64,000 nucleotides of DNA from Pedobacter sp. SYSU D00535 (GTDB taxonomy: Bacteria; Bacteroidota; Bacteroidia; Sphingobacteriales; Sphingobacteriaceae): assembly GCF_017355855.1 (NCBI RefSeq), contig NZ_JAFEWD010000003.1, positions 1 through 64,000 on the forward strand, in the 5' to 3' direction. Positions 7,823-42,215 of this stretch are shown here, piece by piece. How positions within the stretch are numbered: position 1 is the stretch's first letter; each line of letters starts with the position of its first letter. Position numbers and translations under genes: made by a program. Below the pieces are notes generated by a model. That model was not told the origin of the DNA. It saw only the letters and a program-made list of their open reading frames with translations, and searched no databases.

Positions 7823-10288
7823 TTATGCTTTTTCCTCTTCTTCTTTTCTCCTTCTGAAGGAGCTGAAGCCAGCAAATCCTAAACCTCCAACGAGCAATAT
7901 GGAAGATATCAGAGAGACTGTTTCTCCGCTATAATAGGAGGCAGGCTCAAACTTGAATTCCACTTTGTGATTCCCGCCTGGTAGCTGAGCTGCTCTTAGC
8001 AGGTAGTTCGCCCTGAAGTAAGGGATCTTGTTGCCATCCACATAGGCATTCCAGCCCTTATCATACCAAATTTCCGAGAATACGGCAATGAGGTCGTTAG
8101 GCGCAGTATATTCGTAAACCAAGTGGTCGGGTTTATAGCTGACAAGCTCAATAGAGGAATTCGTAATAGTACCCAGCTTTTTCTCGTCAATTAGCGACTT
8201 GAAGCTCTCGTGCACAATCGCTTCCTTCTTAGGATCGAAGCTGCTGATTGCCTCCATCTCCTGCTCATTACTTTTTACGTAGAGAACGTCCGTTACAAAC
8301 CAGGCATTACCCGCAGCCGTCTCGCGGTTCTGGATACGTTGCGACTGCCCGTCCTGCGACATGGTAATAGCATATTTGGTGTTCAGCATATCCAGCACAT
8401 CTTCGTTGATGGAGTTGTTGAACTGCTTGTCGATTACTTCCTGGAAGCGCTTTAGTTTAGCGGCATGGTATCCTCCTATAGATTTATGGAAGTAGGAAGC
8501 TCTGGCGCTTTGGAAGGTGCTTTCTGTTAAATCGATTACCCGGTAGTGTCCCTGATCTCTTAAAATAAGCTCGTCTACCTGCCTTGGTTCAAAAACCATG
8601 TTAGTAGGTTCAACAAAGTTTTCATTGTTGAGGTAGCGCTTGTCTACCGACCACATGTCTACCAATATCGCCACAGTTAGTATGATGAAGGCCACTTGTG
8701 GCTGTAGCTTCTTTTGAATAAGGGCCCAGGTTAGCGCCGCTCCAATCAGCACAAAAATAAGCGAGCGTAAGGCGTCCATTCTTGCCAGGCTTTCCCGGTC
8801 CTCGATCAGGGCATTAGCAATTGAAGTAGCGAAGCTGGCATCTCCACCTGTAATTTGGGTTAACTGCTGAATCAGATCCTCGTGCCCCGAGTTTCTGAAA
8901 GCAAGCAACAAGGAAGGGAAAATGATCAGAATAAGTAGTAGTCCGCCGACAATGTAAATGGAATACTGAAGTTTTTTAATCAGGTCCTTTTTGTCCAAGC
9001 CTTCTGTTGTAATCTCTTTTACTGCTAGAATGGCCAGGATCGGGAATAAAAATCCGGTAACCGCCAGAATAGATTCTACCGCTCTGAACTTATTGTAAAG
9101 CGGGAAGTAGTTAAAGAACAAGTCAGAAACAAGCGGGAAATGTTTACCGAATGAGAGCAGGATCGTCAGTATCGTGGCTCCGACAATCCACCATTTTAAT
9201 GGCCCCCTGACAATAAACAATCCTAAGACAAATAAAAGGCAGACGATAGCTCCGAAATAGTAAGGCCCCGCTGTGAATTGTTTCTCGCCCCAATAGGTGG
9301 GAAGTTGTTTCGCAAAGCCAGTGGCTTGCTCGGCAGGTACTCCACGTTCAATGAGTGTCTTAGCAACTTTTGAATCCTCGTCTAGTCCGCCCGCTGAAGC
9401 ACCACCGTAAGCATTGGGAACGAGGAAAGTAACGATTTCTCCTACTCCCTGACTCCATCCGTAAGCATATTCTCTGTCAAGGCCGTTGGAAGGCGCATTC
9501 CCTTCTGTTTTTAAATTTGATTTACCGCGAGTACTCTCCTGGCCGTACTCATACGTTGTCCAAAGCATGCTTGCATTCACCCCGACAGAGATCATAGCTG
9601 CTACAGCCAAATAAGCTATTGATTTGAAGAATGCTTTCGTTTCTTTCTTTTTGATGGCATTATACAGTTCCACACCAACTAGAATCAAAATGGCCAGGAA
9701 AAGATAATAGGTCATCTGGATGTGGTTCGCTCGGATTTCAATCGCCAGAAACAAGGCGGTAAGAGATGCCCCCAGTAGATATTTTCCTCTTAATGTAAGG
9801 ATAATGCCTGCAAGAATAGGAGCGAAAAAAGCAATCGCAAAGGCTTTGTTACTGTGTCCCGCCTCGATGATCTGAAAGTTGTAGGAGGTAAAGGCGAAAG
9901 CAATTGCCCCGGCGGCCGCAAGCCATGGACGCACTTTCAAGACGCAGAATAACAAGTAGGCCCCTAAAAGATATAAAAGAACAGTATCGATCGGGTTTGG
10001 AAATACAATTTTGAAGAAGGAAACGATATGGGTCGCGATGTTATTAGGGTATTGAGCCCAGATCTGGAAGGCTGGCATCCCACCAAACATGGAGTTAGTC
10101 CATAGCGGTGCTTTCCCCTCACTCGCTTTATAGTCCATGATTTCTTTCTGCATGCCTTTTGCCTGCAACACATCGTGCTGGCTTAAGGCTTTTCCTTGCA
10201 GGGCTGGACTGAAATAAATGAAACACAAAACGATAAAAAGGCCAATAATGGCCAAATGGGTTCCATTTCGTTTAAACCAATTAGTCAT
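7823..10288 (-). CDS. YfhO-like polytopic membrane protein
   Basis: An 821-residue integral membrane protein with about a dozen helices in the first 550 residues, a soluble region near residues 570-770, and a last helix just before a charged C-terminus (SSFRRRKEEEEKA). The early stretch WTNSMFGGMPAFQI and the late GWNAYVDGNKIPYFRANYLLRA are signatures of the YfhO family. Members in Gram-positive bacteria are linked to glycosylation of lipoteichoic acid, so a GT-C-type lipid-sugar role is plausible here, but the substrate is unknown. It has its own promoter (10310-10338) and terminator (7771-7800), so it is probably monocistronic. Confidence 0.8.
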   Translation of the reverse strand: MTNWFKRNGTHLAIIGLFIVLCFIYFSPALQGKALSQHDVLQAKGMQKEIMDYKASEGKAPLWTNSMFGGMPAFQIWAQYPNNIATHIVSFFKIVFPNPIDTVLLYLLGAYLLFCVLKVRPWLAAAGAIAFAFTSYNFQIIEAGHSNKAFAIAFFAPILAGIILTLRGKYLLGASLTALFLAIEIRANHIQMTYYLFLAILILVGVELYNAIKKKETKAFFKSIAYLAVAAMISVGVNASMLWTTYEYGQESTRGKSNLKTEGNAPSNGLDREYAYGWSQGVGEIVTFLVPNAYGGASAGGLDEDSKVAKTLIERGVPAEQATGFAKQLPTYWGEKQFTAGPYYFGAIVCLLFVLGLFIVRGPLKWWIVGATILTILLSFGKHFPLVSDLFFNYFPLYNKFRAVESILAVTGFLFPILAILAVKEITTEGLDKKDLIKKLQYSIYIVGGLLLILIIFPSLLLAFRNSGHEDLIQQLTQITGGDASFATSIANALIEDRESLARMDALRSLIFVLIGAALTWALIQKKLQPQVAFIILTVAILVDMWSVDKRYLNNENFVEPTNMVFEPRQVDELILRDQGHYRVIDLTESTFQSARASYFHKSIGGYHAAKLKRFQEVIDKQFNNSINEDVLDMLNTKYAITMSQDGQSQRIQNRETAAGNAWFVTDVLYVKSNEQEMEAISSFDPKKEAIVHESFKSLIDEKKLGTITNSSIELVSYKPDHLVYEYTAPNDLIAVFSEIWYDKGWNAYVDGNKIPYFRANYLLRAAQLPGGNHKVEFKFEPASYYSGETVSLISSILLVGGLGFAGFSSFRRRKEEEEKA

Positions 10289-28245: not shown

Positions 28246-29112
28246 ATGAAAGGTATAATCCTTGCCGGCGGTTCCGGCACCCGACTGCATCCCCTGACCC
28301 TGGCTACCAGTAAACAAATGATGCCGGTGTACGATAAACCGATGATCTATTATCCGCTGTCTATTTTAATGCTGGCAGGGATTAAAGAAATCCTGATCAT
28401 CTCTACACCCCATGATCTTCCCAATTTTGAGAAGTTACTGGGCGACGGTTCGCGCATTGGCTGTAAGTTTTCTTACAAGGTGCAGGAAGAGCCTAATGGT
28501 TTGGCGCAGGCCTTCGTTATCGGAGAAGAGTTTGTAGGAGATGACAGTGTGGCGCTGATCCTGGGAGATAATATCTTTTACGGAGATGGCTTATCGCATT
28601 TACTACAAGAATTAAAGGAACCGCAGGGAGGAGTGGTTTTCGCGTATCCAGTGTCTGACCCCGAACGATATGGCGTGGTGGAGTTTGACGAAAACAACCA
28701 GGTAATTTCCATTGAGGAGAAACCTGCAGAGCCCAAGTCGAACTACGCAGTACCTGGTTTGTACTTCTATGATAATTCGGTCATTGAAATTGCAAAAAAT
28801 ATCAAGCCTTCTCCAAGGGGAGAATATGAGATCACCGATGTCAACAAGGAATACCTGCGTCAGGGGAAACTGAAGGTGGGCGTGTTGAGCCGGGGAACCG
28901 CCTGGTTAGATACCGGGACCTTCAATTCGTTGATGCAGGCCGGGCAGTTCGTGCAAGTCATCGAAGAACGTCAGGGGTTGAAGATCGGATGTATTGAAGA
29001 GGTTGCCTTCCGGATGGGCTTCATTACAGCGGATGAACTAAGAGCCATCGCAGCACCTCTGGTGAAGAGTGGATATGGACAGTATTTGCTGCGGATGATT
29101 GATTTCAAGTAG
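28246..29112 (+). CDS. rmlA: Glucose-1-phosphate thymidylyltransferase
   Basis: A 288-residue enzyme that makes dTDP-glucose from dTTP and glucose 1-phosphate, the first step to dTDP-linked deoxysugars. The signature loop [13 protein letters not shown] is at residues 6-18, followed by [16 protein letters not shown] and the metal-binding [27 protein letters not shown] and [13 protein letters not shown] complete the active site. The product could feed both rmlD and the 3-amino-sugar genes at 35680-39410, if a 4,6-dehydratase exists elsewhere. Full length. Confidence 0.96.
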
Positions 29113-35679: not shown

Positions 35680-36099
35680 ATGACTACTAATGAACCTCGA
35701 ATTTTAGACCTTCCGAAGATTTTAGATGATAGAGGAAATTTAACATTTTTAGAGGAAGGTGTTCACATTCCCTTTAAGGTTGCAAGGACTTACTGGATCT
35801 ATGATGTGCCGGGCGGCGCGGTTAGAGGTGGTCATGCTTATCTTGAGAATCAGGAATTAATTATTGCCTTAGCGGGGAGCTTTGATGTTGTACTGGACGA
35901 TGGGACGAACAGAAAAGTGTTCTCCCTAAATAGGTCCTACTATGCACTGTATATTCCAGGAAAGATATGGAGACATATGGAAAACTTCTCCACTAACTCA
36001 CTCGCCTTTATAGCAGCGTCCACGTCGTACAACGAGGGGGATTACATACGAGATCACCAATACTTTCAAAAGGTTAAAAGTGAAGGCTTCAATTTATAA
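35680..36099 (+). CDS. FdtA/QdtA-like dTDP-sugar 3,4-ketoisomerase, first copy
   Basis: A 139-residue single-domain cupin. Enzymes of this family convert dTDP-4-keto-6-deoxyglucose to the 3-keto sugar before amination. Conserved features are DDRGNLTFLE, the YDVPGGAVRGGHAYLENQE core and GSFDVVLDDG. The core histidine pair of the family is HxH, but here the second position is tyrosine (H52, Y54). The protein is adjacent to a second copy at 36080 in which both histidines are present. Activity of this copy is therefore uncertain; it may act on another sugar or as a partner. Confidence 0.8.
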   Translation: MTTNEPRILDLPKILDDRGNLTFLEEGVHIPFKVARTYWIYDVPGGAVRGGHAYLENQELIIALAGSFDVVLDDGTNRKVFSLNRSYYALYIPGKIWRHMENFSTNSLAFIAASTSYNEGDYIRDHQYFQKVKSEGFNL

Positions 36100-36499
36100 C
36101 TGTAATGTTATCGAGCTCCCTAAAATTCATAATAGGGCGGGAAATATTACTCCGATTGCAAGTAATAAAGATATTCCATTTTCAATTCGACGAATATATT
36201 ATCTATACGACGTGCCGGGGGGAGAGACAAGGGGTGGCCACGCGCATTATGAGTTGCATCAATTGATAATAGCTGCTAGTGGAAGCTTTGATGTAGTGCT
36301 GGATGATGGCAATAATAAGAAGACTGTGACTCTCAACCGGCCTAACTACGGACTCTACGTCACCCCCGGTATTTGGCGGGACTTGATTAATTTTTCTTCT
36401 GGGGCTGTCCTGTTAGTTCTCGCATCCAATAAATATTCGGAGCAAGATTACATCCGGGATTATGCCGAATTTTTAAATTGGAGGCGAAATGCAGGCTAA
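36080..36499 (+). CDS. FdtA/QdtA-like dTDP-sugar 3,4-ketoisomerase, second copy
   Basis: A 139-residue cupin paralogous to the gene before it, with YDVPGGETRGGHAHYELHQ carrying the full histidine pair (H54, H56) and GSFDVVLDDG. It is the better candidate for an active 3,4-ketoisomerase supplying the FdtB-like aminotransferase at 38310. The start is a GTG that overlaps the end of the first copy by 20 bases. The formyltransferase gene begins 11 bases before its stop. Whether the product has galacto or gluco configuration cannot be read from the sequence. Confidence 0.85.
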   Translation: MKASIYNCNVIELPKIHNRAGNITPIASNKDIPFSIRRIYYLYDVPGGETRGGHAHYELHQLIIAASGSFDVVLDDGNNKKTVTLNRPNYGLYVTPGIWRDLINFSSGAVLLVLASNKYSEQDYIRDYAEFLNWRRNAG

Positions 36500-37337
36500 G
36501 GCAGAAAAGGTTTGTTTTGCAGGCGAAGGATGGGGAGCAAAAGCAGCACTTAAAAGTTTAACGCATTGTAATTTCAGTATCGATCTGATGTCAAATGACG
36601 ATTCCTTGAAAGAAATGGTGTCTGGGGCGCGTCACATCAGTCGTTTTGAAGACTCAGAAGCTAGGCTGGTTGTATGTGCCGGCTATAAGCCTTTGATCCC
36701 TAAAACCCTTTTATCAGCCAAGACATTTGTGAACGTGCATTATTCGTTGCTCCCTAGGTATAGAGGACTTCATTCTACTGTCTGGGCGATCCTAAACGAC
36801 GAGGACTGGTTAGGTGTGACTATTCATGAAATGAATGAAAATATGGATGACGGTCCAATCATCTATCAACATGCTGTTCAAAACAATAGAATAAGTACTG
36901 CCACGGATTTTATACAGATGTTTAATGAATGGGTGGGAGAAAATCTCGGGCTCATTCTTCAACAGTACTTGGGGCAGGAGATACTTCCTACTCCGCAAGA
37001 TAAAAAACAAGCTACCTGGGTCGGAAAACGTAGTATCGATGACTGTAAGATTGATTTTCAAAGGACAAACTATTATTTAAGGAGTTTTTTTAGAGCCTTA
37101 TCTAGTCCATATCCCGCACCATTTTTTACAACTAGGAGTAGGGAAAGGTATTCAGTGCTGAAAGTAGCCTTTCACGACCAGACTTGTGACACTCACGTCG
37201 GACGGATTTTAAATATAGACAATGATGGGGTATGGGTAAAGACTGGTGATGGATATATGATACTTAAAGAGATAGTGGACAATAATTTTCAAAGAGTTAG
37301 CTTCGATCGGTTTAAGATAGGAATGTACTTGACTTAA
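36489..37337 (+). CDS. Sugar N-formyltransferase (FdtF/QdtF-like)
   Basis: A 282-residue protein with the N10-formyl-tetrahydrofolate-dependent formyltransferase core. The triad is readable as N82 and H84 in NVHYSLLPRYRG and D120 in NENMDDGPIIYQ. The C-terminal half is similar in length to sugar formyltransferases that formylate dTDP-3-amino-3,6-dideoxyhexoses. Its place between the isomerase pair and the aminotransferase supports that role over tRNA formylation. It overlaps the second isomerase by 11 bases. The N-terminal Rossmann part (CFAGEGWGAKAAL) is shorter than in Fmt. Confidence 0.83.
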   Translation: MQAKAEKVCFAGEGWGAKAALKSLTHCNFSIDLMSNDDSLKEMVSGARHISRFEDSEARLVVCAGYKPLIPKTLLSAKTFVNVHYSLLPRYRGLHSTVWAILNDEDWLGVTIHEMNENMDDGPIIYQHAVQNNRISTATDFIQMFNEWVGENLGLILQQYLGQEILPTPQDKKQATWVGKRSIDDCKIDFQRTNYYLRSFFRALSSPYPAPFFTTRSRERYSVLKVAFHDQTCDTHVGRILNIDNDGVWVKTGDGYMILKEIVDNNFQRVSFDRFKIGMYLT

Positions 37338-37339
37338 AT

Positions 37340-38320
37340 ATGTTAGTTAAAAAATACGAAAAAGAAGATGCTATTAGCTGGAATGAGTTTGTAAAAAAGG
37401 CCAGAAATAGCACTTTTATGCTTCATAGAGACTATATTGAGTATCATTCGAATCGATTTGAAGATTACTCACTAATGATTTTCGACGACAAAGATAACCT
37501 AGTTGGATTGTTACCCGCTAATAGGTCAGTAGATAACCTCGTAATTAGTCATCAAGGTTTAACATATGGGGGACTAGTACTCAATGTAGGGACGACTCTT
37601 AAACAAGCAGCAAAAATTCTGTGCGAATTGCTAAGATTCTTACACATAAATGAAATAGAATTGCTGACCCTGAAGGTTTTACCATCCTTTTATTCAGCGT
37701 ATTCCAACGACGATCTTCTATATCTGATATTTCTTCTTCAAGGAATGAGGTATAGATTAGACACAGCGATTGCTGTGGATACGAGTTTGGAGCTCCCTTG
37801 TCAGGAAAGAAGAATTAGGGCGATTAAAAAGGCAAGAAAGCTGGGTGTAGAGATAGTCGAGGAGGAATCGTTTGCAGGCTTTTGGAATGACATTCTGATA
37901 CCTAACCTGAGAAGCCGTTTTGGAGTGACACCTGTTCACTCTCTACGAGAAATTGAGTATTTAGCGAGCCGATTCCCAGCGAATATAAGGCAGTTTAGTG
38001 CCTATTTAGATGGAAGGATTTGTGCGGGTACAACAATTTATGATACTGGAAGGGTTGCACATGCCCAGTACATCTCGGCTGATAGTAGAGGTAAAGATTC
38101 AGGAGCCATTGATTTACTATTTCAGTCATTAATATTTGACAAATTCTCGTCTCATACAGTATTTGATTTTGGAATTTGTAACGAGGAGGAGGGTAAAAAG
38201 ATTAATACAGGCTTGTTAGAATGGAAGGAAGGCTTTGGAGGAAGAACGTACTTACATGAGTTTTATAAAATCGAAACAAAGAGTTACTCAGTTTTAGAGG
38301 AGAAATTCAATGGAAATTAA
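37340..38320 (+). CDS. FemAB-like/GNAT acyltransferase
   Basis: A 326-residue protein with the double-GNAT (FemAB-type) layout. The second half has [19 protein letters not shown] and [29 protein letters not shown], a typical acyl-CoA or aminoacyl binding segment. Proteins of this type often sit in Bacteroidota surface-glycan loci beside FdtA and FdtB homologues and are thought to acylate an amino sugar. It lies between the formyltransferase (two-base gap) and the aminotransferase (11-base overlap). The donor is unknown. Confidence 0.7.
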
Positions 38321-39410
38321 GTTTTTGGATTTATTGCAAATAAATCACCAGTACCGGAAAGAACTAAAGGAAGCGTTTGAGCGCGTTTTAGATTCAGGTT
38401 GGTTTATTTTAGGAAAAGAGGTTAGAGAGTTTGAGAAACAATTTGCGAGATATTGTGGAAGCCGACATTGCGTTGGTGTTGCTAATGGATTAGACGCGCT
38501 CATCTTAATTATTAGGGCATATAAAGAATTAGGTGTGTTTAAAGACGGGGATGAAATAATCGTGCCTTCCAATACATTCATCGCAACTATTTTAGCAATT
38601 TCAGCCAACAATCTCCAACCTGTCTTCGTTGAACCTGAAATCAATTCGTTCAACATCGATCCCAGCAAGATTGAACAAAAGATTTCTAGGAAAACCAAAG
38701 CAATCTTAGCCGTGCATTTATACGGTCAACTCGCCCCAATGCCCGAGCTGGTAGCAATTGGACGAAAATATAATCTTAAAGTGATTGAAGACGCAGCCCA
38801 GGCTCATGGGGCGGAGTTGAATGGTAGGAAGGCGGGAAATTGGGGTGATGCAGCCGGCTTCAGTTTTTATCCAGGAAAAAACCTTGGCGCGTTAGGTGAT
38901 GCAGGAGGAGTTACAACGAGCTCAGAGGAGCTTGCAGAAATTATTAGGAGCCTAGGAAACTATGGATCATTTCATAAGTACGAGAATTTGTACAAGGGCG
39001 TTAATAGCAGACTGGATGAGGTGCAGGCTGCTATATTAAACGTAAAACTAGCGTATTTAGATCGGGAAATTGAGGCACGAAGAGCTATTGCTAGTAGGTA
39101 TCTCACTGAAATTAGGAATAAAAATATTGCATTGCCCGAGGTGAAGGTTCGTGAAGCACATGTCTGGCACCTTTTCGTAGTGCGCGTTAAGAATAGAGGC
39201 TCTTTTCAAGCCTATCTGGAGAACAAGGGAATTCAAACGGTAAACCACTACCCTATCCCCCCCCATCATCAACAAGCATATAAGGAGTTGAGCAATCAAA
39301 GCTTCCCTATTTCAGAGTTGTTGCATAAGGAGGTGGTCAGTTTACCGATATATCCTACGCTAAAAGAGACAGAGATTGACTACTTACTAGAGGTGATCAA
39401 TGCCTTTTGA
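38310..39410 (+). CDS. DegT/DnrJ/EryC1 sugar aminotransferase (FdtB/QdtB-like)
   Basis: A 366-residue PLP-dependent aminotransferase. It starts [15 protein letters not shown], and the PLP-binding parts are [21 protein letters not shown] (D161) and the Schiff-base lysine K190 in [15 protein letters not shown]. This matches enzymes that aminate C-3 of dTDP-3-keto-6-deoxyhexoses. The two FdtA-like isomerases upstream would provide the substrate. It overlaps the acyltransferase upstream by 11 bases and the flippase downstream by 11, so it is tightly coupled in the operon. Confidence 0.9.
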
Positions 39411-40701
39411 AATGGTTTCATTTTCAAGGCTCAGAAGATTTGGGAAGAGTGCTTTTTTGAAGACCTCCTTTTATTCAGGGTTAGTCACATTAATAAAAGT
39501 TTTAACAGCTCTCGTAACGAGCAAGGTGATAGCCGTCCATCTTGGGCCCAGTGGACTCGGAATGCTTGGGCAACTAAGCAATTTTATCGCGGTTATTCTT
39601 CCCGTCTGTTGTCTAGGCTTTAACAGTGGCATAGTCAAATTTGTCGCGGAACTGCGTTATGAGAATAATTACGCGCTGCAAAACTTGTTATCAAATGCTT
39701 TTAAGTTGACCGTTCTTGCCAGCGTATTAATTGGAATTCTGGTAGTTTTTTTTTCAACTAGACTAAGTAGACTGCTTCTTGGTAATAGTAATTATTTCTA
39801 TATTTTCGTGGTTGGAGGAACGACATTCCTACTCTACGCGGTCAATAACTTCTACCTCTCAGTTTTAAACGGATTAAAAGAGTTTAAAACTTATAATGCT
39901 ATCAGTATGGCCGCAACTATGATAGGATTTGTACTTACTGTCGTCTTGTCTCTGATTTATTCTGTAGAAGGTGCATTGTGTGCTTTGCTACTGGCCCCTT
40001 CACTTACATTCTTTTTAACTCATTATCAGGTTAACCGTTTGCCACTATTGAAAAGTACTTCTATCCGAAAAATATTTAAGGTTGACTGGGCAAGTATTAA
40101 GCCGCTTTACAATTTCACGTTCATGGCCTTAGTATCGGCAGGGTGCCTTCCTGTAGCTCAAATTTTCATCAGATATTTGTTAAGCCAAGAGGTTTCTTTT
40201 GCCGCCGCCGGTATTTGGGAGGGGATAAACAGAATTTCTAATAATTATCTATTAGTGGTTACCACGGCCCTGAGCACGTATTACTTACCCAGACTGTCAG
40301 AACTAAGCAGCGAAAGTGAGCTGAAATCTGAAATACGCATGGTCTATAAAATTACAATTCCGGTTTTATTTTTGATTTCGGGCATTATCTACCTAGCGAG
40401 AGATCTCATTGTTAATCTGCTGTTTTCTACGGACTTTATGCCAATGACCGACCTCTTTTTCTTTCAGTTACTTGGAGATTTACTCAAAGTAGCCTCCTGG
40501 ATTTTAGCATTTCAAATGGTCGCCCGTGTGCAGACGAGGCTATATGTCGTTAGCGAATTAATCTTTTCATTAAGTCTAGTAGGCTTAAGCGCCATCTTTA
40601 TTAATTGGTACGGTTTGAACGGCGCCGTCATTGCTTTCTGTGCTAATTATTTCCTTTATTTTCTGTTGATGGTATATGTTTTTCGGAGGAGCTTATTTTG
40701 A
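39400..40701 (+). CDS. O-antigen flippase (WzxE-like)
   Basis: A 433-residue protein with about 12 membrane helices and the Wzx-type N-terminus ([20 protein letters not shown], then [15 protein letters not shown]). Enzymes of this group flip undecaprenyl-linked repeat units outward across the inner membrane. It differs clearly from the two MGII-type flippases at 142 and 55998, so three flippases lie in the window. It overlaps the aminotransferase by 11 bases and the next gene by four. Confidence 0.85.
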
Positions 40702-42215
40702 AGATAACCAGCGCTTTTTTAACACGAGAATATAATAGCTTTAAGGAAAGAGCTCTTACGCTAGCAGAAAAGTCAGATTTTGATAAGTCTTTCAAGCTTT
40801 TGAGATATTGCTTAACGATCGCATATGAATATCCTTTCCTTCCTAAGTTCTATGATGAGGAGATTGAAGCCGCTTTAACGAAAGTAGCTATGCAAATCGA
40901 CAAGGGTAGTACGGCTACTAATCCTCCACGTTCCAATCGGGTTGTCTTTTGGGATTCGCATTTTCTAGACAATAGTGGTTTAACTTTGCAGTATGTGAGG
41001 GCTTTGTTGAAAAACGGCTTTGAAGTTTTATTCATTATAACAAGTGAAAAAATGATAATGAGAGGACTGAATCTGTACGAGGAGTTAAGCAGCAACAGTA
41101 ATGTGACCATTTGTGTTTTGCCCGACTCTATTGACTCAACAGAGAGAATCAGGTTTGCGCTTTATAAGATACGCGAATTCGGTCCTTCAAAAGGATTTTT
41201 ACATTTTACTCCTTGGGAGATTGAAGGGTTTTGTGTGTTTTCTACCCTGGATGAAGTAACGCGCTACTTCATTAATCTTACGGATCATGCTTTTTGGCTG
41301 GGCAGGAAGTGTTCGGATTATTTTTTTGAGTTCCGGAACTATGGTTTTTATATTTCGAAAGTTCTCCGGGATATACCCGAGGAGAAATTAATACTTCTGC
41401 CTTTCTATCCAGTTTTCACAAAGTCAAACTCAAGCTTTCAAGGTTTTCCTTTTGAGACTGCCGATAAAATTATCGGGTTTGGAGGAGGATCATTGTACAA
41501 AATTTATGGAGACCCAGATAATACTTATCTGAACGCAATTAAGCATGTTTTGGAAAGAAATAAAGATTTCGTTTTCCTATTTGTAGCCGGCGGTGATGAG
41601 CGTTATTTGTTGAAATTTATTAAGGAGAATGGTCTGCAGAAACAATTTTTTTATTTGCGGAGACGAAAAGATATATCCGCTATTTTTGATAACGTTCATT
41701 TTTACGTAGACACGTATCCGATGTTAGGAGGACTGATGGTTCATTATGCAGTGTCGAAAGGGGTCCCGTTAGTAGGTCTGATGAAGCCGACACTTACCTG
41801 GAACTCGCTAAGTAGCTTTTTGAATACAAACATAGTTCAATCAAAGGCCTCTTCACAGGAATTCGAAGCTGGCATTGAAGAACTGGTCCACCTTTCAAGG
41901 CAGAAGGGGATGAACAATAGGATTGAGGCGTATAAAAATTTGATCGATACGGAGCAAAGTTTTAATCTAAGATTTCAGTTGATACTGAACGAAGATATGA
42001 AAAACAACCATCACGAAATAATGGGTGAATTTATGGATAAAGACGAGTTTTTATCTTACTATCTTACCCTAGAGAATGACTACATGAAAAAGTTTTACTC
42101 TTCAAAGCTATCGTTGCTGGGCCAGGATGCTTTGTTGGGATCCTTGGAAGATGGCTTACGTACGGTTGCTGGCGTGGTTGTAAACTATTTATATAAAAAA
42201 GCGCAATTCCTATGA
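40698..42215 (+). CDS. Glycosyltransferase-like protein (GT-B fold)
   Basis: A 505-residue cytoplasmic protein without membrane helices. The N-terminal 80 residues are helical, and the rest resembles a GT-B fold: RVVFWDSHFLDNSGLTLQYVRALL near residues 80-105, KIIGFGGGSLYKIYGDPDNTYL near 255-276, and YVDTYPMLGGLMVHYAVSKGVP near 337-358. The last is like the donor-binding part of GT4/GT41 proteins. The start is a TTG overlapping the flippase stop by four bases. I do not know its donor or acceptor. Confidence 0.6.
   Translation: MKITSAFLTREYNSFKERALTLAEKSDFDKSFKLLRYCLTIAYEYPFLPKFYDEEIEAALTKVAMQIDKGSTATNPPRSNRVVFWDSHFLDNSGLTLQYVRALLKNGFEVLFIITSEKMIMRGLNLYEELSSNSNVTICVLPDSIDSTERIRFALYKIREFGPSKGFLHFTPWEIEGFCVFSTLDEVTRYFINLTDHAFWLGRKCSDYFFEFRNYGFYISKVLRDIPEEKLILLPFYPVFTKSNSSFQGFPFETADKIIGFGGGSLYKIYGDPDNTYLNAIKHVLERNKDFVFLFVAGGDERYLLKFIKENGLQKQFFYLRRRKDISAIFDNVHFYVDTYPMLGGLMVHYAVSKGVPLVGLMKPTLTWNSLSSFLNTNIVQSKASSQEFEAGIEELVHLSRQKGMNNRIEAYKNLIDTEQSFNLRFQLILNEDMKNNHHEIMGEFMDKDEFLSYYLTLENDYMKKFYSSKLSLLGQDALLGSLEDGLRTVAGVVVNYLYKKAQFL

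Follow-up and report, generated by a model that had tools for sequence, protein, structure and literature searches.

FdtA from Aneurinibacillus thermoaerophilus (PDB 2PA7) is a homodimer with R15, H49, H51, and His95 in one chain, and its residue numbering is followed throughout. As described in PMC2943079, FdtA dimerizes by swapping strands 2 and 3, and H49, H51, and H95 line the active site; H49 is put forward as the base, and H51, strictly conserved in the family, as a residue that may shuttle protons. The same paper associates Arg at position 95 with enzymes that retain the configuration at C4 and His with those that invert it, FdtA being an inverting enzyme. QdtA from Thermoanaerobacterium thermosaccharolyticum (PDB 4O9E, 4ZU5, and 4ZU7) shares the fold and is encoded by one gene. 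The title of 4ZU7 names a Y17R/R97H variant, and structural alignment, with an offset of two, puts these residues at FdtA places 15 and 95. WlaRB from C. jejuni (5TPU) and HCAN_0198 from H. canadensis (7N67) each carry a DxRG motif, HAH, and Arg95 in one chain. A second C. jejuni relative, WlaRA (5TPV), lacks H51 (HAN) and the DxRG motif (NSKN), yet its PDB title still names it a TDP-fucose ketoisomerase. The RmlC 3,5-epimerases StrM and CBU1838 are described in PMC9095892 as one-protein dimers with swapped strands, in which TDP is held by R25, F28, E30, and other residues of both protomers, some of them on the swapped strands. No report of a heteromeric FdtA-type enzyme was found in the open literature searched, a body of work that some key papers on the family lie outside.

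Two overlapping FdtA-family genes and their surroundings

The window (the whole stretch of 64,000 nucleotides from Pedobacter sp. SYSU D00535 that was analyzed) carries two FdtA-family cupin genes on the + strand: A at 35680..36099 (139 residues, RGGHAY, with H52 and Y54) and B at 36080..36499 (139 residues, GTG start, RGGHAH, with H54 and H56). The reading frames overlap by 20 bases, with the start of B inside A. The earlier note had described this arrangement of adjacent 139-residue cupins, HAY followed by HAH, and every detail checked was correct. Both proteins belong to Pfam family FdtA (PF05523; 156.2 bits for A and 184.9 bits for B, against a curated cut-off of 23), and together they are the sole matches to it in the whole genome assembly (E ≤ 0.001). 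In FdtA numbering, D16-x-R18-G of A provides D13 and R15, H52 is H49, and Y54 takes the place of H51; E59 replaces Q56 and R98 replaces H95. In B, H54 is H49 and H56 is H51, Q61 and R100 occupy the two remaining places, and the position of R15 is taken by A20 (NRAGNIT). The H51 histidine of 3,4-ketoisomerases is thus present in B and replaced in A, and because it is missing, A was not classed as a stand-alone ketoisomerase.

Comparison with the described proteins gives partial matches only. FdtA resembles the window pair in fold and Pfam family, and its H49 is found in A and B, its H51 in B, and its R15 in A; unlike FdtA, the window pair has these residues split over two chains and Arg in place of His95. 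QdtA, like B, is without R15, although it comes from one gene and B varies freely at this position. WlaRB and HCAN_0198 have the look that a site composed from A and B would have, but they are single complete chains. WlaRA resembles A in lacking H51, but it is not A-type, since its DxRG motif is lost too. WlaRA and WlaRB were considered as an A/B pair and rejected: both motifs are present in WlaRB, and both are absent from WlaRA.

A and B head a tight gene run that continues with a formyltransferase, a FemAB/GNAT-like acyltransferase, a DegT aminotransferase, and a Wzx-like flippase. The formyltransferase (36489..37337, + strand; PF00551/PF02911) overlaps B by 11 bases and probably N-formylates a 3-amino sugar. 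The acyltransferase (37340..38320, + strand) matched Acetyltransf_6 at 21.3 bits, slightly below the cut-off of 22. The DegT/DnrJ/EryC1 aminotransferase (38310..39410, + strand; 367 bits) is the contig's single PF01041 match and probably performs an FdtB/QdtB-like step; additional strong DegT genes are found on contigs 6 and 12 of the genome. The run also contains a 505-residue open reading frame (40698-42215) that matched neither Pfam nor NCBIfam (E ≤ 0.001). Further upstream lies a glucose-1-phosphate thymidylyltransferase gene (28246..29112, + strand; Pfam NTP_transferase, 254 bits), named RmlA-like from its sequence.

A and B of the window both carry Arg at position 95, as in QdtA-type (retaining) enzymes and not as in FdtA proper (inverting). 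Retention at C4 is therefore predicted, with dTDP-3-keto-6-deoxy-D-glucose (the gluco form) as the product. This compound would be aminated by the neighboring DegT enzyme and formylated by the formyltransferase, which suggests a Qui3NFo-like end sugar for the locus. The earlier note had raised the possibility that A yields a different product stereochemistry. A change of stereochemistry arising from Tyr54 is not favored: Arg95 is common to both copies, the only DegT gene of the contig lies in this run, and Tyr and Phe alternate at position 51 among A orthologues, so a catalytic role for the Tyr hydroxyl is unlikely. The strong DegT genes on contigs 6 and 12 leave such a change some probability.

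Pairing of A and B across genomes

Related loci were collected from 201 genomes of the window's taxonomic family, in which 28 tandem-pair loci were read besides the window, and from named genomes by a scan with an A profile, from which the best 80 of at least 582 relatives were used. Each of the 28 family loci contained one H[ASG]H copy and one H[SA][YF] copy (16 HSY, 7 HAY, and 5 HAF). A B gene lay directly downstream on the same strand for 28/28 A copies in the family and for 79/80 in the named genomes (best 80 of at least 582). In the one exception, L053, an acetyltransferase gene adjoins A, and the only other FdtA gene of that genome, on another contig, is B-type. A third source, the viral contig L112, supplied an unpaired HAN protein. 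Overall, among the matches listed, B was found downstream of 107 of 109 A-classified copies, corresponding to 103 different pairs. In the 103 unfused pairs listed, the domain matches lie between -5 and 63 nt apart (median 4). Four natural A+B fusions (L054, L081, L085, and L102), each with two FdtA domains in an open frame of 294-315 residues, were present among the best 80 of at least 582. The hosts of the pairs include, by record title, Bacteroidota, Ignavibacteriota, Thermodesulfobacteriota, Spirochaetota, Verrucomicrobiota, and a riflebacterium; many of the genomes are metagenome-assembled.

In a tree of 103 rows, built by a quick method from few columns, A formed one clade (SH-aLRT 98) and B another (95). 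The pair is not peculiar to this genome: A and B represent sister subfamilies of long standing whose genes are neighbors, with A first. Their trees correlate with each other (mirror-tree r = 0.39; the maximum of 500 shuffles was 0.09), a result that speaks for co-inheritance of A and B and not for contact. Genes that are inherited together in a fixed order, or fused, are what a heteromeric enzyme would be expected to have. Some loci depart from the simple pair. Two carry triplets, A-B-B, with two different B copies behind one A (L042, 6001-7467; L087, 5944-7385), and in L098 a 110-residue remnant of a second A (9313-9642), of which the arm part is recognizable, follows an intact pair of A and B at a distance of a few kb.

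The surrounding genes were compared in the same 80 named-genome loci (best 80 of at least 582 relatives). One strong match to the window DegT (≥200 bits) was found downstream in 64 of these loci, and never two; it was absent there from the other 16, five of which have less than 3.5 kb on that side. Strong DegT matches were found upstream in 5/80. A hexapeptide acyltransferase gene lay downstream in 46/80, FemAB-like matches occurred in 7/80 and formyltransferase matches in 2/80, and RmlA-like genes (≥200 bits) were located within 6 kb of the pair in 19/80.

Distribution of site residues between A and B

Residues were counted in different sequences only, 130 of A and 131 of B among the matches listed, with L112, L113, and L114 excluded. 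H49 is present in 130/130 A and 131/131 B, both window copies included. H51 is present in 131/131 B and in 0/130 A, where the position is occupied by Tyr (91), Phe (37), Lys (1), or Leu (1). With no His at this place in any of 130 different A-type copies, that of the window among them, Tyr54 is a real feature of A and not a chance or sequencing error. The arginine of the DxRG motif, R15, a putative contact of the sugar nucleotide, shows the opposite distribution (128/130 A and 7/131 B, among the matches listed), and ten residue types occupy this relaxed position in the 131 B sequences. The clean division, in which A has R15 without H51 and B has H51 without R15, was found in 95 of the 103 different pairs listed; six pairs have R15 in both chains and two (L056 and L074) in neither. 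Given that B forms one clade, the loss of R15 may reflect few events.

Unpaired relatives provided a control. A phylum-wide search of 395 Bacteroidota genomes with the A protein gave matches in 89; the reading covered the 61 genomes with a best E < 1e-21 (the other 28 matched less well), apart from a handful of poorer second copies in them, and identical rows were removed. Adjacent pairs in this set comprised 28 A rows with R15 and without H51, 27 B rows with the reverse, and one B row with both residues. R15 and H51 occurred in one chain in 34 of the 38 unpaired rows; of the others, three have H51 only (L223, L227, and L237) and one has R15 only (L182). At the L182 locus (genome G743), A and B lie on the same strand about 800 bases apart, and this B-type neighbor retains R15 and is itself counted among the 34 complete unpaired rows. 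A further unpaired set of 20 regions, one of which (L143) had no usable match, was made up chiefly of shorter proteins that carry HRH and RG. Loss of complementary site residues in the pairs (95/103), beside complete unpaired chains (34/38), is the pattern expected of a heteromeric enzyme with a shared site. The association of unpaired genes with a complete set of residues is strong, but not absolute. R15 is missing from the unpaired gene L227 and from unpaired genes that were read as QdtA-like (L031, L128, L131, L141, L223, and L237; the second, third, and fourth of these come from the further set), so B could in principle work alone. H51 is absent from three among all the unpaired loci examined, L144 (HAL), L141 (HAN), and L112 (HAN, the viral contig), with no partner seen nearby.

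The pocket of A is not decaying. Among the matches listed, H49 and E56 are each conserved in 130/130 A and R95 in 129/130, and Y/F51, E56, W36, S83, and N103 are near-invariant and specific to A. The A barrel therefore probably still does something and may bind a ligand; "dead site" is too simple a description, and this conservation counts against a divided site as it stands. In B, H49, H51, and Q56 are kept in 131/131 of the matches listed. Position 95 of B is Ala in 44/131 different sequences (among the matches listed), which was also counted against a divided site. This B subtype has WAS or WAA instead of WRD/WRE, and many of its members have the Cys of HAHKECHQ; most of the other B sequences have Arg at position 95. 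The exchange of Q56 for Glu was considered as further evidence that the A site is dead, and this was dropped, because Glu also occurs in 15 of 36 complete single chains.

Tests reaching beyond positions 15 and 51 gave no significant support for the division, either column-wide or by covariation. Column-wide conservation differed in the right direction but not significantly (entropy difference, p = 0.18); arm sites made up 3/4 of the columns lost only in B and 2/8 of those lost only in A. In 129 A-B pairs, the mean inter-protein covariation signal was not above that of shuffled pairs. One outlier, A54-B20 (z 7.8), was higher than any of 60 partner shuffles and any of 40 shuffles confined to 8 broad A clusters. 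It did not stand out from shuffles confined to 27 fine clusters, and for this last reason it was not counted as support. An alignment that mixed fused with single proteins, in which A rows fell on the B half, was set aside.

A proposed two-part ketoisomerase and its alternatives

We propose, with a probability of roughly 0.6, that a single dTDP-4-keto-6-deoxyglucose 3,4-ketoisomerase is built from A and B as its two subunits; the heterodimer, the use of R15 across subunits, and the product are what we infer from the comparisons above. The ancestor would have been a domain-swapped homodimer, each site of which combined the barrel of one subunit (H49, H51, and residue 95) with the swapped arm of the other, the arm consisting of the DxRG motif plus strands 2 and 3. 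After duplication, A would have retained the arm motif but not H51, and B the HxH barrel but not the arm arginine. The barrel of B and the arm of A would then form one complete site of an A:B dimer, and the barrel of A with the arm of B would not form a ketoisomerase site. An invariant arm beside a barrel without H51 in A, with the reverse in B, where the arm is loose and the barrel perfect, is hard to explain if each arm serves its own chain, and this argues for crossed sites. The RmlC residues F21, R25, F28, and E30 have a spacing that fits a DxRGxFxE motif; that residues of this set lie on the swapped strands is our reading. Weighed against the proposal were the 16 loci with no strong DegT downstream and the five with one upstream, the two pairs without R15 in either chain, and the unpaired genes that lack H51 or R15.

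Predicted structures are consistent with the heterodimer but are not decisive. The natural fusion L102 was predicted with a pLDDT of 88.1 and a pTM of 0.86, its two halves joined by a disordered linker (residues 137-154); one half could be superposed on an entire FdtA chain (133 residues at 1.6 Å) and the other on an entire WlaRB chain (131 residues at 1.3 Å). Strands 2 and 3 of the predicted A half span residues 17-23 and 33-38, which would put R15 at the root of the swapped arm. The pair of L106 (Pedobacter puniceum, Sphingobacteriaceae), read through its stop and almost free of a linker, gave a predicted pTM of only 0.52, a result weighed against the proposal. The earlier note had also suggested that A might act as a heteromeric partner. 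Near-constant adjacency, fusions, and complementary motif loss support that suggestion well on comparative grounds, and it is favored over a change in stereochemistry. The note had regarded Tyr as common at this place in active enzymes as evidence against its proposals; Tyr or Phe is indeed the rule in the A subfamily, but we know of no member of it that is active alone.

The names of the C. jejuni proteins would suggest another arrangement, in which A and B are independent homodimeric ketoisomerases whose products differ, galacto for one and gluco for the other, since that organism has two relatives whose PDB entries refer to TDP-fucose (5TPV) and TDP-quinovose (5TPU). The unpaired R15-less genes of QdtA-like appearance fit such an arrangement, as do the strong DegT genes on other contigs of the window's genome, which slightly lower our confidence in a two-part enzyme. 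We nevertheless consider it unlikely, given Arg95 in both window copies, the single strong downstream DegT in the named-genome loci (best 80 of at least 582), the natural fusions, and the retention of both motifs in most unpaired rows; moreover, WlaRB has both motifs and WlaRA neither, so they do not form an A/B pair, although the title given to WlaRA, solved with HAN and without DxRG, was itself counted against a divided site. In a further arrangement, B would be the enzyme by itself, as a QdtA-like protein, and A would be attached to it in a regulatory or scaffolding role, or would offer a pocket in which the dTDP-sugar is held without turnover. The complete retention of H49, H51, and Q56 by B among the matches listed, together with a pocket conserved in A despite the loss of H51, would suit this arrangement, which is quite unlikely in our estimation because it leaves unexplained why residue 15 is loose in B and the DxRG motif near-invariant in A and in most unpaired enzymes.

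The near-invariant residues specific to A would also be expected if A catalyzed a different reaction in series with B, such as an epimerization or a later tautomer step. We regard this as improbable, since Tyr and Phe interchange at position 51 and A keeps its arm motif while its own barrel is without H51. That A is a decaying duplicate without function is hardly credible: the lost histidine is, according to PMC2943079, strictly conserved in this family, but the tight conservation of positions in 130 different copies of A, almost all of them next to a B gene, already contradicts decay.

Extended from the window to many Bacteroidota and scattered members of other phyla, the two-part enzyme would be an obligate A:B heterodimer derived from a divided domain-swapped homodimer. 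Alongside its single composite catalytic site, it would have a conserved pocket that is non-catalytic and may take up a dTDP-sugar to tune or channel the reaction. We advance this wider claim tentatively, at a little short of even odds. Family models alone would assign two ketoisomerases to each such genome, whereas the two genes probably encode one enzyme in two parts; in that case, expression of a single gene would yield little or no activity. For the annotation of surface-sugar clusters in Bacteroidota, the rule would be to ask whether DxRG and HxH occur in one chain or are split over two. Complete enzymes without a partner occur along with split pairs and fused ones, offering a natural system for the passage from a symmetric to an asymmetric enzyme. 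If the proposal is true, the pair would represent a natural partition of an active site, with single-gene and fused A+B enzymes alive beside it.
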